From positions 1,488,001-1,552,000 of the forward strand of contig NZ_CP077107.1 of NCBI RefSeq assembly GCF_019263745.1: 64,000 nucleotides of DNA, read 5' to 3'. This DNA comes from Methanospirillum hungatei. Its GTDB lineage: Archaea > Halobacteriota > Methanomicrobia > Methanomicrobiales > Methanospirillaceae. How positions within the stretch are numbered: the first letter of the stretch is position 1; each line of letters begins with the position of its first letter. The translations under genes were made by a program, and so were the position numbers. This document shows positions 21,360 through 33,000 of the stretch, piece after piece. The notes beneath the pieces were generated by a model that made no database searches, was not told the DNA's origin, and saw nothing but the letters and a program-made list of their open reading frames with translations.

Positions 21360-21974
21360 ATGGAAATATCAGAAGAAGTAATTGACGGAATACGAGAACT
21401 GGTAACCATAGGCGTCGGGCATTCGGCTGGTATGCTCAATGATCTGACAAATGCCCATATCACTCTGACGGTCCCGGATGTTCATATCTTTAAGATGGGA
21501 CAGGAGAATGCATTCACTCCCGTATTATACCCCATGACTCCTGAGGGTACATCCCAGGTAACCATGTCTTTTTTTGGTGAATGCACCGGTTCACTCCATC
21601 TTATCTTCCCAAATAAAAGTGCCATTAACCTTGTTATCATACTGACCAAAGAGGATGAATCACCGGATGAAATGGATGCCCTACGGGTAGAAACCCTCAT
21701 GGAAGTAGGAAATATCATTATGAGCTCGGTCATGAGTTCATTTTCAATCCTGCTCACTTCCCGACTCTCATTTCTGTTTCCCAGTTACCAGACAGGAATC
21801 AGGAATATGAATAATTCGGCATCTCAGGTCTCATCAGATATTGGTATCATGGCCAGAACAAGATTTGAGGTTCATGAGAAAGAAATAGAAGGATTACTAT
21901 TCTTTTTTCTGACAGAATCTTCTTTCAAACACATACAAAAACGAATTCTGGAGATCATGGAGTGTGGCCTGTAA
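21360..21974 (+). CDS. CheC-family phosphatase (first copy)
   Basis: A 204-residue CheC-like protein. CheC and CheX dephosphorylate CheY-P through a conserved Glu/Asn pair in the signature D/S-x3-E-x2-N-x22-P. Both halves are present with exact spacing. The first motif is Asp9, Glu13, Thr16 (Asn replaced) and Pro39; the second is Glu111, Glu115, Asn118 and Pro141. So the first active site is probably lost and the second kept. It is the first gene of a tight operon: its stop overlaps the next start (TAATG), followed by a CheY-like gene and a second CheC-like gene. The likely target is that CheY-like protein. Confidence 0.85.
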   Translation: MEISEEVIDGIRELVTIGVGHSAGMLNDLTNAHITLTVPDVHIFKMGQENAFTPVLYPMTPEGTSQVTMSFFGECTGSLHLIFPNKSAINLVIILTKEDESPDEMDALRVETLMEVGNIIMSSVMSSFSILLTSRLSFLFPSYQTGIRNMNNSASQVSSDIGIMARTRFEVHEKEIEGLLFFFLTESSFKHIQKRILEIMECGL

Positions 21975-23086
21975 TGTGGGATGAACGAAAAAGAAGTGTC
22001 ATTTTAAATCTCAATGTTCTTCCGGTCGGAATATGCACAATCAGGAAGGATTATACCATCTCATTATGGAACAGGACCCTGGAGATTTGGACAGGTATTT
22101 TGCAGGATGATGCCATGGATAAACCATTGGAAGTCGTGGTGCCTCAGTTTGCAAATCCACTCGAGAAGGCACGGCTTAAAGTAGTGCTCCAGGGAGGAGG
22201 TCCGGTTATTCTCTCATCCAGGTTTCACCCACGGATATTTCCACTCAAAGATGAGAACCAGAATGAAGGGAAATATCAGCGAACATCCATCTCTCTGTTT
22301 GAACTTCCTGACAGTGAAGTGCGAGTGATGATTGCTGTTGAGGATGTAACCGCTATCACCGAACAGGTTCTGAAATACCGGCAGATAAAAGATCAGATTG
22401 CCTACGAACTGGAAGAGAAGAAAAAGACTGAACGTGCCCTTTCAATGGCTCTGAGTAAATTAAACACTCTGTCTTCCATTACCAGACATGATCTGAATAA
22501 TATCCTGACTGCATTTGAGGGATATCTGACCTTTTCAATACAGGAAAATCCAGGTGGAAAAGTGCAACAATACCTGGAAAAAATGAAAGAAGCAGCGGAT
22601 GTAATGAAACGTCACATTTCCTTTGCAAAAGATTATCAGGAGATGGGCAATGCACTTCCCACTTGGTTTGCTGTAGAGACGCTAGTCAGGTCATCGGGGT
22701 TAGGACCGGTGTTTCAACAGATAACCATAAAAAGTGATGTCGAAAACCTAGAGATTCTAGCAGATCCGCTCATTGTCAAAGCCATTTACAACCTGCTTGA
22801 GAATGCTGTCAGGCATGGTGAACATACCAGTACTATCTCAATTTCGTACAAAAAGGCAGACGACGGAATTGTCTTGCTTATCGAAGATGATGGAAAAGGA
22901 ATCCCCACAAATATCAAAGGTAGAATATTTAACAAAGGATTTGGATCAAATACCGGTCTTGGTCTTTTTCTCACACGTGAGATCCTTGGGATTACCGGAA
23001 TGCAGATTATTGAGACCGGAGTTGAAGGAAAAGGAGCCAGATTTGAGATCCGGGTTCCGGAGGGACATTTCAGGTTTCGGGAATAA
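21974..23086 (+). CDS. PAS sensor histidine kinase, RHD type
   Basis: A 370-residue cytoplasmic kinase, the smallest in the window. One PAS domain lies at about 10-130 (GICTIRKDYTISLWNRTLEIW), then a short coiled coil, the H box SSITRHDLNNILTAFEGYL (about 165), the N box LLENAVRHG and G boxes EDDGKGIP and GFGSNTGLGLFLTREIL. The frame opens at GTG 21962, but the ATG at 21974 overlapping the previous stop is the natural coupled start. Its operon position between a CheC-like and a CheY-like gene makes the CheY-like protein its probable phospho-acceptor. Confidence 0.9.
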   Translation: MWDERKRSVILNLNVLPVGICTIRKDYTISLWNRTLEIWTGILQDDAMDKPLEVVVPQFANPLEKARLKVVLQGGGPVILSSRFHPRIFPLKDENQNEGKYQRTSISLFELPDSEVRVMIAVEDVTAITEQVLKYRQIKDQIAYELEEKKKTERALSMALSKLNTLSSITRHDLNNILTAFEGYLTFSIQENPGGKVQQYLEKMKEAADVMKRHISFAKDYQEMGNALPTWFAVETLVRSSGLGPVFQQITIKSDVENLEILADPLIVKAIYNLLENAVRHGEHTSTISISYKKADDGIVLLIEDDGKGIPTNIKGRIFNKGFGSNTGLGLFLTREILGITGMQIIETGVEGKGARFEIRVPEGHFRFRE

Positions 23087-23130: not shown

Positions 23131-23490
23131 ATGAGCAGGATTTTAATCGTGGATGATTCATTGTTTCAACGCAGGGTAGTCAGTGCTCCGTTAAAAGCAC
23201 AAGGATTTGAAACCTTTGAAGCAGTGAATGGAAAAGAAGGACTTGAAAAGATCCTGGAGGTCAAGCCGGATCTCATTCTCCTTGACATCCTCATGCCTGA
23301 AAAAAACGGAATTGAAGTACTCAAAGAGTTGAAAAAGGCACAAAATACAATTCCGGTAATTATGCTCACCTCCGACGTTCAGGAATCGACACGAGATGAA
23401 TGCCTGTCTCTTGGAGCACAGGCTTTTGTGAACAAACCGGTAAAAGCCGAAGAACTGTTACCGATCATTACGTCTCTTCTACAATCATAA
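23131..23490 (+). CDS. CheY-like single-domain response regulator
   Basis: A 119-residue receiver with all key residues: the DD pair in ILIVDDSLFQ, phospho-Asp in LILLDILMPE, Thr in VIMLTSD, Lys in AFVNKPVK. There is no output domain, so it acts by binding a partner. It sits 44 bp after the kinase and 2 bp before the second CheC-like gene, so kinase, receiver and phosphatase form a complete circuit. It may be a CheY feeding the archaellum or a local phosphate carrier. Confidence 0.92.
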   Translation: MSRILIVDDSLFQRRVVSAPLKAQGFETFEAVNGKEGLEKILEVKPDLILLDILMPEKNGIEVLKELKKAQNTIPVIMLTSDVQESTRDECLSLGAQAFVNKPVKAEELLPIITSLLQS

Positions 23491-27048: not shown

Positions 27049-27204
27049 TGTTCTCGTGAGAGATCGGGGATCTCCCCTCTCTGCTGTGGTGGACATGTTT
27101 CCGCCCAGGATATGTACCTGGAAATCTGGAAAAATGAATCAGAATGCAATTAATTTTTCGTAGGAGACGGAAGTTAATTAATTCATCATATCAAAGAGCT
27201 GATA

Positions 27205-27633
27205 ATGAAAAAAATTTTGGTTCTGTTGTTTATGGTTTATATGACCAGCATGGTGCTCGCAGATGACACTTCTGGTCCATCACATCCAAACAGGCTGGTT
27301 GATTACTCCCTAGATAGGTTCAACAAGACTCCTGAATTAGTGGATACGGAACTGGACAGATTCAATAAGTCAGCCACTATTATTGATATTGAACTTGAAA
27401 GAATGAACAATACAACGAAACTCATTGATACGGAACTGGACAGATTTAATAAGTCACCCGCAATCATTGATATTGAACTTGAAAGAATGAACAATACAAC
27501 GAAACTCATTGACACGGAACTGGACAGATTCAATAAGTCACCCACTATTATTGATATTGAACTTGAAAGGATGAACAATACAACGAAACTCATTGATACG
27601 GAACTGGACAGATTCAATAAAACTCCATATTAA
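27205..27633 (+). CDS. Small secreted protein of eight 14-residue repeats, each with an N-glycosylation sequon
   Basis: I do not recognise a family. Residues 1-19 are a signal peptide (KKILVLLFMVYMTSMVLA). After an 11-residue linker the rest of the protein, residues 31-142, is exactly eight 14-residue repeats ending at the stop codon. Two alternating versions occur: LIDTELDRFNKSPA and IIDIELERMNNTTK. Each repeat has hydrophobics at positions 1, 2, 6 and 9, acidic residues at 3 and usually 5 or 7, and an Asn-x-Ser/Thr sequon at 10-12. It would be exported and probably glycosylated, forming an elongated rod or solenoid. It is monocistronic with an AGCTGAT-type ribosome site. Confidence 0.8.
   Translation: MKKILVLLFMVYMTSMVLADDTSGPSHPNRLVDYSLDRFNKTPELVDTELDRFNKSATIIDIELERMNNTTKLIDTELDRFNKSPAIIDIELERMNNTTKLIDTELDRFNKSPTIIDIELERMNNTTKLIDTELDRFNKTPY
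27295..27630 (+). repeat. Tandem coding repeat, 84-bp units (2 x 42 bp)
   Basis: The repeats are also nearly identical at DNA level with an 84-bp period from about 27340 on: the segments beginning GATACGGAACTGGACAGATT recur, with only a few substitutions. The first 42-bp unit is more diverged. Such near-identity indicates recent expansion or gene-conversion homogenisation, so copy number may vary between strains. Confidence 0.85.
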
Positions 27634-28310: not shown

Positions 28311-30038
28311 TCAATTTTTCAGATCAAATACCCGAAATCCAATATTTCCAAAACAATATATGACATATTGTTCTATCTGTAATTCCGGATTTTCTTTTAT
28401 TAAACCCTCGACATATCCTGCTAATTGATTCTTATCTTCTTCCTGAAGGGAAAAATTCTCCAATTTATCATAATGTTTCCTGAACTCTGCATTTGATAAA
28501 TATTTAAATTCAATAATGATCCTGATATGAGCAAATTTTTCATTATATTTCCCAACAAACTCAAGATCAGATCTTCCTTTCGGATAAGACCTTTCAATGT
28601 TCCAGGTAAACCACTTTGACAAATACCTGCTGCAGAGTTCATAAAAAGTAGCCCTATAGAAATTCTCCCCAACCTGCATAAATAGAACTTCAGGTAGTTG
28701 TGAGACATACAACTCCCAGTAATCAGCAAAAAGTTTTGGAAGATCCGGATGAGAAACAAACTTTCTCATCATCTCTTCATATCTGGTTGACACATCAATG
28801 TGATACAGTTCGTTTAAATATTCGGTGATAATTTTTCTGACATTCAGGTTAGGGATGGTGAGTGAAAACTCATCTTTTCTAGTGAGAAGGCCCAGGTAAA
28901 AAAAAGAAATGGGATAATATCCTTTCTGAAAGAACTGTAACAGATTAAATTTTGTAACCAGGTACTCTTCATCAAATGATATACTGTCTTGGAGAGTCAA
29001 ATCGCGGATAAAAACTTCAGTATCATCAGATCGCATACTGGTAATCCTTTTAATCCAACCAAGATCAGTTCGGAGATTCAAATCGGTGAGTTGGTTTGGA
29101 ATATTTCCCGAGGAGCAAAACAGTCTGAGGAAAAACATCACCATTGTGGGGTTATACAAAGCCTGACCATCTGTTCTGACTATGTGATATCCATCATACT
29201 GACTTTTAATCACATCCAAAACCATCGGCTTTGTTGAAATATCAAAACCATAATCATTATAGATACAATCAAGTAGATTGTTCACCTCTTTTTGAGTGAA
29301 CCCAATCATGTGCTCAAATTCAGGATCAAGTGTCAGAAATGTTCCAATATTGTATCCGGATGACAAATCATCAATGGTTATGGGAAATACCCCAGTTATA
29401 AAAATCTGTGCAATTGCACCGTTTTGTCTTCCTTGTTTTAAAACTTTGAAAAAAGTCCGAAGAAAACTATCCTCTGCAGTCAATTCTTCATACAATAAAT
29501 CCTGATAACTAGTAATGCACTGATTCGCAAAATTGTCATATTCATCAATTATCACATACAATTGAGAAATTCCAGTGGCTTTTAAATACTGAAGCATAAG
29601 GGCAAGATTCGTTGATGGTGATATATCTGGGTGAATATCCGGCAATGTTTCAAGAAGATCAGAATATTGTAATTTTAGCATTTTCAAACAATTATTACAA
29701 TATACTTCAAATTCTTCTTCTATGTCTGATACCAGATCAGATATATGAATAACAGAGAAATCAAGGCTCAGAACAATATATTGATTATGAGATGAAGTTG
29801 GGTACGTACCAATCCAAGACTCTCCAAAAATTTCCTCAAACGAATCCACATATGAACGGTCATAATAATACTGAAGCATGGAGCAGAAAAGCGATTTACC
29901 AAATCTCCTTGGCCGAAGGAATACCGGATTTTGAATCGTCTCTAATTTTTGAATATATGATGTCTTATCAATCAGATATGCCTTTTTCAGAATAGCTTCC
30001 TGATAATTACATATACCATACGGAATCCTTCGTTCCAT
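28311..30038 (-). CDS. AAA-ATPase-like protein with C-terminal PD-(D/E)XK domain (first copy)
   Basis: A 575-residue protein of the AAA-ATPase-like/DUF1703 family, often present in many copies per genome. RPRRFGKSLFCSML (about 42-55) is the Walker A-like loop, LYVIIDEYDNFAN the Walker B, and ITGVFPITIDDLSSGYNI the sensor-like motif. The C-terminus has a nuclease-like core: Asp in RSDLEFVGKYN, then Glu-x-Lys in IIEFKYL. The role is unknown; defence or DNA-end processing has been suggested for relatives. The frame runs upstream to 30224 through the kinase 3' end, but ATG 30038 matches the paralogue at 47696-49425. It lies 40 bp downstream of the kinase gene on the same strand. Confidence 0.88.
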   Translation of the reverse strand: MERRIPYGICNYQEAILKKAYLIDKTSYIQKLETIQNPVFLRPRRFGKSLFCSMLQYYYDRSYVDSFEEIFGESWIGTYPTSSHNQYIVLSLDFSVIHISDLVSDIEEEFEVYCNNCLKMLKLQYSDLLETLPDIHPDISPSTNLALMLQYLKATGISQLYVIIDEYDNFANQCITSYQDLLYEELTAEDSFLRTFFKVLKQGRQNGAIAQIFITGVFPITIDDLSSGYNIGTFLTLDPEFEHMIGFTQKEVNNLLDCIYNDYGFDISTKPMVLDVIKSQYDGYHIVRTDGQALYNPTMVMFFLRLFCSSGNIPNQLTDLNLRTDLGWIKRITSMRSDDTEVFIRDLTLQDSISFDEEYLVTKFNLLQFFQKGYYPISFFYLGLLTRKDEFSLTIPNLNVRKIITEYLNELYHIDVSTRYEEMMRKFVSHPDLPKLFADYWELYVSQLPEVLFMQVGENFYRATFYELCSRYLSKWFTWNIERSYPKGRSDLEFVGKYNEKFAHIRIIIEFKYLSNAEFRKHYDKLENFSLQEEDKNQLAGYVEGLIKENPELQIEQYVIYCFGNIGFRVFDLKN

Positions 30039-30078
30039 GAGATAGTATGGGAAGTATAAAGATATTTTTCTCTGTTTT

Positions 30079-33000
30079 TTATGGGAATTTAACTCGATAC
30101 CCGGTCCCGCAATTCCTGATAATCTCCATCTTCCCCCCAAGTTGTCCGATAAGACCTTTAATAAGCTGCATTCCCAGAGATGAACTTCTCTCCAGGATAA
30201 AACCATCCGGAAGGCCAATTCCATTATCTGAATAATTCAGGTGATACATATCTGAATCAAAGAACATTTCTATTGTTATTTCTCCTTTTTGTCCATCTGG
30301 AAATGCATGTTTTAAAGAGTTGGAGATCATCTCATTGATGATCAGGCTGCATGGCATGGCCTTATCAATATGCAAATAGATCTCTGAAATGTCTAATTTC
30401 ACCGAGATATTATGAGAAGTTGCCTTATAAGATTGGAACAGGTAATCAATGATCTTTTTGATGTAATCACCATAATCTATCCGGTCTAAATCATCAGACT
30501 GGTACAATTTTTCATGGATAAGGGCTAAAGATTTGATCCGGTTCTGACTTTCGTTAAAAATTTCTATCATTTCCGGATCTTTCAGGGCTCTTGCTTGCAT
30601 AAAAAGAAGGCTGGATATAACCTGCATATTATTTTTGACACGATGATGAATTTCCTTAAGCAATGTTTCTTTTTCTTTCAGTGATCGTGACAACTGCTCA
30701 TCAAACTGTTTTTGTTCGGTTATGTCTACTACGATTGATCGGGACATTACAAAGGATCCAGTTTTGTCATAGATAGCTGAAGCATTAACCCGGACCGGGA
30801 AGGTTGTCCCATCTTGTCGTATCATCTCGATTTCAATCCCAGACAACTCTCCTTTTTTAATGAAATCATGAAAATTGGCGATGAAAATTTTCTTACTGTC
30901 AGAAGGAAGAAGATCTGTGATATGTTTTTTGCCTACCACTTCATCAGATGAATATCCAAGCCAGGAGAGTTCTGTGTCATTCATCCTGACAATCAATCCC
31001 TCAGAATTCAGAGAATGGTATCCACATGGAGCATTATTATACAGATCATGAATCTCATTTGCAGTTTTCACCCGGTCATCCTCAGCACGGACTATTTCAG
31101 TAATATCCTGGGAAGATCCGACCAATCGGATTTTATTTTCACTTTCATCATGTAATACTTTCATCTGGGCATGAACAAATCTGACATCTCCATTGGGGAG
31201 AAGCAGCCGGTGATACACTGTTCCGGATGACTGATTGTCAATGATTCTTTGAATTTCATGATGGGCTCGGTCACGATCCTCAGGATGCATTCTGCTCATG
31301 ACCATATCATACGACGGCTGAACTGAATCCGGCTCATAGCCCATTATTCTATACTGTTCTTTGGACCAGAATACATGTCCGGTATTCATATTCATCTCCC
31401 AGGTTCCATAATGAGCGATAGCCTCGGCAACATCAAGTCGTTCCAGGTTTTCTTCAAGAACATGCTGGATGTACGTGAGTTCGTTATTTTTTTCGGTTAA
31501 TTCCAGAGTCCGTTCCTGAACACGATTCTCAAGCTCTTCATATGATCGAATAAGTTCATCTTCAACCAGTTTTTTATCGGTTATATCACGGTTTGTTCCT
31601 CTTCTTCCTAGAAAATTCCCGTCTGAATCAAAAATAGGGACACAGGTATGAGCTATCCATTTTATCTGGTTATGACGGGTGATAATCCTGAAGATAATCT
31701 CTTCTTTATCTTTTTTCTCATCCAGGGAGACATGGTTATTATAGATCTGAAGATCTGACGGATGAATCAACTGTTCTATGGTAATTTTTTGCTGATAGAA
31801 ATCATCAGAACGGTACCCGCAGATATGCTCGACAGAAGGGGTGACATATACATATCTATTATCAACTGAAAGCCAGTATTCCCAGTTATAGGTATAATCT
31901 GCAAGTATTCGGAATTTTTCTTCGCTTTTTATAAGATCGTTCCGTTGGGCTTCAAGTTCTTCATAATTCTGCCTGAGCTCTTCTTCTGATGCTGCAAGTT
32001 CTTCAAATGTTGCTCCAAGCTCCTGATTTTTGATTTCAAGTTCTGTCTGATATAACTTTTGATCAGTAATATTGATTGAGAGAATCGCAATCCCTTCAGG
32101 AACAGGTTGAATTTTCAAATTATACCATGAACGTTTCCCATCAGGAAAGACAAACTCACTCTCGATGTTCTGGGGAACTCTCTCTTGCATTGATTTTTTC
32201 AGCGATTGAAACATACTGGTGTGTTCTACGCCAGGATACATCACGGGCAATGAACTCTTCAGCAGCTCATTCCTTGAATATCCACTCTGCTGCACGGCAA
32301 CATCATTCAAATAAATATATTGGAACTCATGATCAAGTATTTGAAAACCTTCCAACATGGAGTCAAGAATCCGACGATATCGCTCTTCACTCTCATAGAG
32401 TGCATTTTCTGCTTTTTTCCGTTCACTGATATCCCTCGTTACACCAACCATTCCAGTAACACGGCCATTATTATCCGTGATGAGAGTTGTCACCGTTTCT
32501 GTTGGGAAGTATGTATTATCTTTGCGTACGAGATCCATCTCATGAGTCTGAACCCGGACTGATTCAATACCCCTTTCCATAGCACGAATTCTCTCAGGAT
32601 ACTCTTTTTTGAATACCTGAAGTGATTGTGGAGTAAGCATTGATTCAAGTGACTGGTTTGTGGCATCTTTCGGATCATATCCCAGGAGTACAGAAACTGA
32701 CGGACTGATATATGTGAATTTTTGCGACGGAAGGTCCATCTTCCAGATGATGTCTCCAACATTTTCCGCAAGCAGCCGATATCGTCGTTCGGTATATGCA
32801 AGAACAGAAGACATCTCATCAGCATGGTGCATCGAGTAGATTACAGCAGCACATAACCCTGCAAGAAAAAGAAACGTAAAACCAAGCGTCAAAATTATGA
32901 GATCTTCCCAATGTTTTGTATGGGATGTTAAAGATTCCCTAAATTTCAGGTCAAGAAGATCAGCCTGCTGTTCAAGATCGTATAAAGCGACTCTCAATCG

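Follow-up and report, generated by a model that had tools for sequence, protein, structure and literature searches.

A Methanospirillum-restricted exported protein of tandem 14-residue repeats, a candidate helical rod of the cell envelope

INTRODUCTION

Among archaeal envelope proteins, the closest described likeness in form to the protein studied here is SlaB, the membrane anchor of the Sulfolobus acidocaldarius S-layer, which contains an alpha-helix of 132 amino acids that was modelled as a coiled-coil rod (PMC10903991). Within Methanospirillum, two exported envelope proteins have been described, MspA/SH (Mhun_2271), an amyloid-like protein with internal imperfect repeats of ~80 residues, and SLP (Mhun_2263), which has Ig-like domains (PMC6242892, PMC11641113). 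The envelope of Methanospirillum hungatei shows uniform gaps of ~12 nm between the membrane and the S-layer and of 4 nm between the S-layer and the sheath, the S-layer itself measuring 9.5 nm, and the connecting densities in these gaps have been attributed to proteins that were not resolved (PMC11641113). The components of the end plugs are also unidentified (PMC11641113).

Here, we describe an M. hungatei gene for an exported protein made almost entirely of 14-residue repeats. It shares with SlaB the export signal, a predicted long helix, a putative place in the envelope and a host whose envelope is N-glycosylated (PMC10903991), which is an analogy of form and not of membership, as SlaB has three beta-sandwich domains, a transmembrane anchor and no 14-residue repeats, whereas the present protein consists of repeats only and has no anchor. 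Although exported in the same genus, it resembles neither MspA nor SLP. Coiled coils of the tropomyosin type have a comparable two-heptad unit and are likewise charged and helical, with weak PDB matches (E 0.12-0.97); however, the present protein is exported, has proline in most units and is built of near-identical tandem units, so that this match is compositional.

RESULTS

Architecture and genomic setting of the repeat gene

The gene lies in a window of 64,000 nucleotides, the whole stretch of DNA analyzed, which spans bases 1488001-1552000 of a genome that consists of one contig of 3,393,136 bp; positions are given within this window (Table 1). Translation of the reading frame agreed with the first-pass annotation in giving a signal peptide, an 11-residue linker and exactly eight repeats of 14 residues (residues 31-142), which run to the last residue. 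The signal peptide, up to about residue 19, reads MKKILVLLFMVYMTSMVLA. The N-termini of all homologues start with MKK or MMKT followed by a hydrophobic stretch, and an export signal is present in every complete one. The window protein has a net charge of -8, and its sequence contains no membrane anchor, PGF-CTERM or S-layer domain. The two repeat versions had been described as mostly alternating; this is strictly so in repeats 3-8, but at the start the LVDxxLDRFNK type occurs twice in succession, as repeats 1 and 2. The recent expansion of near-identical 84-bp units, also proposed from the sequence, is supported, with Tandem Repeats Finder reporting an 84-bp period (3.3 copies, 93% matches, 27343-27620), 89-94% identity among the three 84-bp dimers and 95-98% DNA identity among the three IIDIELERMNNTTK units.

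Table 1. Position of the repeat gene, its parts and its upstream elements within the window
Feature	Position	Strand	Basis or remark
Conserved upstream element GAAGTTAATTAATT, 14 bp	27170..27183	+	Probable BRE/TATA-like promoter core; promoter function putative
Putative ribosome-binding stretch AGAGCTGAT, just 5' of the ATG	27193..27201	+	Near-identical in G006
Whole gene, exported 14-residue-repeat protein, 142 aa	27205..27633	+	Translation; homologues in 5/12 genus genomes; G001-G003 repeats dN/dS 0.02/0.31
Sec-type signal peptide, residues 1-19, ...VLA|DD, without lipobox	27205..27261	+	Sequence; cleavage site read by eye
11-residue linker, residues 20-30	27262..27294	+	Differs between species; lowest pLDDT of the AlphaFold model
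Repeats 1-2, N-terminal pair	27295..27378	+	(R)LVDYxLDRFNK start kept in three other genomes; LVDYESDRFNK in G006
Repeats 3-7, 84-bp (28-residue) dimers from recent duplication, IIDIELERMNNTTK + LIDTELDRFNKSPx	27379..27588	+	Third dimer continues into repeat 8
Repeat 8, C-terminal, LIDTELDRFNKTPY	27589..27630	+	Aromatic last residue (Y or F) common to all homologues

The flanking genes encode PAS-domain histidine kinases, a HIT-domain protein and an AAA-ATPase_like/PDDEXK_9 protein, and none of them suggests an envelope role. A predicted AAA-ATPase with a C-terminal PD-(D/E)XK nuclease-like domain (PF09820 + PF08011) is encoded at 28311-30224 on the reverse strand; genes of this combination are often multi-copy and mobile. 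The window also holds a small signalling cluster, composed of a PAS histidine kinase (21962-23086), a short receiver-like ORF (23131-23490) and then a CheX-like domain protein (PF13690, 23400-24119, forward strand).

Distribution, selection and growth of the array

Of the 12 Methanospirillum genomes, 5 have a homologue, and the 220 further genomes of the order have none. Neither 393 sampled genomes of the phylum nor a degenerate-pattern scan of 84,980 species, which finds close relatives only, yielded any more. A viral origin was rejected, given that IMG/VR held no relative. Distant matches from other genera and families (G153, G193 and G510) proved to be low-complexity repeats of unrelated proteins. 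One of these genomes offers a curiosity of its own: on the reverse strand of L049 (G193:C7), an ORF resembling phenylalanyl-tRNA synthetase alpha, an identity judged by eye, contains an internal tandem stretch of NLQKLNAPTLKAIE repeats, each of 14 residues, which is an unusual insertion for an apparent housekeeping enzyme.

The absence of a named family, as first noted, held in the curated databases, where the best match of the window protein reached 22.5 bits against a cut-off of 29.3 in Pfam and 18.1 against 226 in NCBIfam. The Pfam matches (Qua1, BCAS2, TMP_N) were discarded as sub-threshold and typical of helical repeats. PHROGs returned only short weak stretches, to families without function, and Rfam returned no RNA match.

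The array has 8 repeats in the window, 10 in G011, 11 in G003 and 13 in G001, while the G006 gene is interrupted by contig ends and split between contigs. Across the four full-length homologues, including the arrays of 10 and 13 repeats, the 14-residue register is strict and free of indels. Between G001 and G003 the repeats differ with a dN of 0.020 and a dS of 0.309 (dN/dS about 0.065), and are thus under strong purifying selection. The reading frame is a real gene, encoding an orphan repeat protein restricted to the genus. As the gene is absent from G004 and G010, genus genomes at 99% completeness, it is not an essential part of the envelope. In G011 and G006 it is found ~5-8 kb from a HIT gene 70% identical to the HIT neighbour in the window; therefore, these three copies probably share an ancestral locus. 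The neighbours in G001 and G003 differ from those in the window.

A different 28-residue dimer has been amplified in each of three lineages: IIDIELERMNNTTK-LIDTELDRFNKSPx in the window, PIDIEMERMNxSPx-FIDTELEILNKTPK in G011, and LVNTELDRFNKTPQ-LIDTELDRLNKAxE in G001 and G003. The ends of the array are common to the homologues, with a first repeat starting LVDYxLDRFNK (LVDYESDRFNK in G006) and an aromatic C-terminus FNxTPY (FNKMPF in G006). Based on these conserved ends and the separate dimer of each lineage, the family reads as a capped array whose middle expands independently. Array length would be altered by recombination between near-identical 84-bp units.

In each of the four full-length homologues, the spacing between the end of the element GAAG[AT]TAATTAATT and the ATG is exactly 21 nt, and the genes upstream differ between the loci. 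The element probably serves as promoter core for a leaderless or nearly leaderless transcript. Closer to the start codon, the window and G006 share CAAAGAGCTGAT[AG]ATG. Elsewhere in the 12 genus genomes, the pattern GRAGWTAATTAATT is matched exactly at only four more sites, three of which share flanking sequence resembling a gene end. A shared regulon motif was rejected, as these four matches all begin with GGAG and no similar protein follows any of them. A scan for bacterial-type promoters was uninformative for an archaeon.

A proposed helical rod

Each 14-residue unit has hydrophobic residues at positions 2, 6 and 9, and position 13 is mostly proline. When hydrophobicity is averaged modulo 7, just two positions stand out, spaced as a and d of a heptad; modulo-7 positions 2 and 6 are hydrophobic in all members. 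In G001 the 103-degree harmonic dominates (1.31 versus 0.89), and it does so in no other member; in the window protein it amounts to 1.09, barely above those at 154 and 129 degrees, so that the coiled-coil signal of this protein is weak. PDB sequence matches were weak as well and fell on coiled coils (dynein axonemal heavy chain 6, tropomyosin and Beclin-1, E 0.04-0.97). From the single sequence, AlphaFold predicted helices at residues 28-83, 85-111 and 114-139 (mean pLDDT 66), and from a two-sequence alignment one helix at 43-139 (mean pLDDT 76.7, pTM 0.27). Since this pTM is low and only two sequences were aligned, the model is read as predicting helix and nothing beyond it. The helical reading of the mature chain is fair; assembly into a coiled coil, a place in the envelope and a spacer role are inferred.

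As 14 residues equal two heptads, we favor an alpha-helical, probably coiled-coil, envelope rod. More precisely, the protein would be a genus-specific exported rod whose repeat number sets its length and which acts as a spacer or fibre between envelope layers, a reading to which we give a probability of roughly 0.5. Coiled coils do not usually contain proline in each or every other repeat, which speaks against that part of the reading.

The sequon ladder

The first-pass annotation had placed Asn-x-Ser/Thr at positions 10-12 of every repeat and suggested a heavily N-glycosylated surface rod. For the window protein the count is exact, with Asn at position 10 and a sequon in 8 of 8 repeats; none of 20,000 shuffles of the chain reached eight sequons, although duplicated units are not independent events. 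If AglB glycosylated Asn-10 of every repeat, the protein would be a sugar-coated surface rod with the glycans as its main function. The export signal agrees with this, as do the three STT3/AglB homologues of the genome (PF02516 matches over the cut-off), the glycoprotein staining of the M. hungatei S-layer protein (PMC11641113) and the G011 array, where all 10 repeats keep the sequon while Ser and Thr exchange at +2. However, across the five genomes Asn-10 is invariant (48/48 repeats), whereas Ser/Thr-12, and with it the full sequon, is found in 36 of 48 and hence not in every repeat. Only 7 of 13 repeats in G001 and 6 of 11 in G003 retain it, and in the remaining 6 and 5 position 12 is Ala, Lys or Asn. 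Given that Asn is conserved without Ser/Thr, another reason for its conservation is needed.

The second difficulty is proline, which occupies +3 in 28 of the 36 sequons and never +1, so that most of the set has a form that AglB disfavours. With Pro at +3, glycosylation is rare or of very low occupancy, as explained by the archaeal AglB structure (PMC8342417). In G011 all ten sequons are of this kind, and in the window four of eight (repeats 1, 4, 6 and 8). Ser/Thr-12 tends to accompany Pro-13, which follows it in 28 of 36 repeats versus 5 of 12 without Ser/Thr (Fisher p 0.03 over all repeats and 0.08 over distinct units, the repeats not being independent). Such pairing would be expected of a helix N-cap rather than of a glycosylation site. 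Judged from these alignments, the ladder is not supported as a conserved trait of the family. While a rod is plausible from the AlphaFold helix, the heavy glycosylation proposed for it is weakened, and we regard a rod that works mainly through its glycans as rather unlikely. Given the three STT3/AglB homologues, some sites may nevertheless be glycosylated, chiefly the four Pro-free sequons of the window protein.

Disorder or a spurious frame

It is also conceivable that the exported chain is largely disordered, or folds only on a partner, as short helices hinged at Ser/Thr-Pro, and serves as a flexible linker, adhesin or matrix component. Proline is present in most repeats (in G011 at position 13 and often also at position 1), the pTM is low, and the chain is charged and has no anchor, all of which would suit such a protein. 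On the other hand, a register kept without indels, strong purifying selection within the repeats and a consistent helix prediction argue against it, and we consider it unlikely. A spurious repetitive ORF without protein function is very improbable: since the DNA repeat preserves frame, 27303-27617 also has an open antisense ORF of 104 aa, but the signal peptide, the conserved ends, the low dN/dS between G001 and G003 and the upstream element at a fixed distance from the ATG all stand against it.

A second 14-residue repeat family

The profile search exposed a tandem pair of exported genes outside the window, here called family B (L023:7635-8627 and L023:8782-9351, in G000:C1:1973634-1975317; genes at 1973634-1974623 and 1974781-1975317). 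They contain 20 and 10 copies of 14-residue units (e.g., KFNSSEIGTMQNSQ and KFNSSEIASMHPAE) of the form (K/A/S)FN(S/T)S(E/M/D)(I/V)..., and relatives are present in 9 of the 12 genus genomes. Family B shares with the window protein the genus and genome, export, the 14-residue period, an invariant Phe-Asn core, a body made only of repeats and one sequon per repeat. Nevertheless, the termini are others, the unit differs outside FNxS and the hydrophobicity peak lies at 129 degrees and not at 103. Profile searches linked the two families with E values of 1.8e-4 and 2.6e-6. Homology is nevertheless not supported, since the reverse search scored similarly on the antisense strand of the gene in the window (three stops, E 1.9e-6) and a permutation of unit columns gave p 0.28. 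The FN core and the period common to both are possibly convergent. In family B, FN-x-S is found at every in-repeat site, Pro is never at +3 and there are up to 20 sequons; by its sequence, this family fits the sequon-ladder idea better than the gene in the window.

A bolder proposal, which we hold only as speculation, is that Methanospirillum makes two separate exported repeat-only sets, each with 14 residues and one Asn site per repeat, which would act as struts or brushes of adjustable length, glycosylated in part, in the spaces separating membrane, S-layer and sheath, with recombination between 42/84-bp units tuning the length.

DISCUSSION

Under the helical-rod reading favored here, the mature chain would be almost entirely alpha-helical, with two heptads per 14-residue unit and neighbouring units stacking into a rod; such rods would probably associate with one another in a coiled coil. 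Ser/Thr-Pro at positions 12-13 would provide helix N-caps or hinges, and the number of repeats would set the length of the rod. At 0.15 nm per residue, the calculated length is 16.8 nm for the window protein and 27.3 nm for the 13 repeats of G001; these values are compatible with the published envelope gaps in a numerical sense only. The rod may thus be a spacer or fibre that spans or decorates the gaps between membrane, S-layer and sheath of Methanospirillum.

The comparison also indicates that glycosylation is not necessarily conserved where a single sequence shows a complete sequon ladder; for testing whether repeats are glycosylated in a methanogen, family B is the better choice. A small rod family limited to one genus and with a species-specific length can be sought in envelope preparations. 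The repeat protein is a concrete candidate for one of the as yet unnamed components that keep membrane, S-layer and sheath of Methanospirillum at uniform distances.
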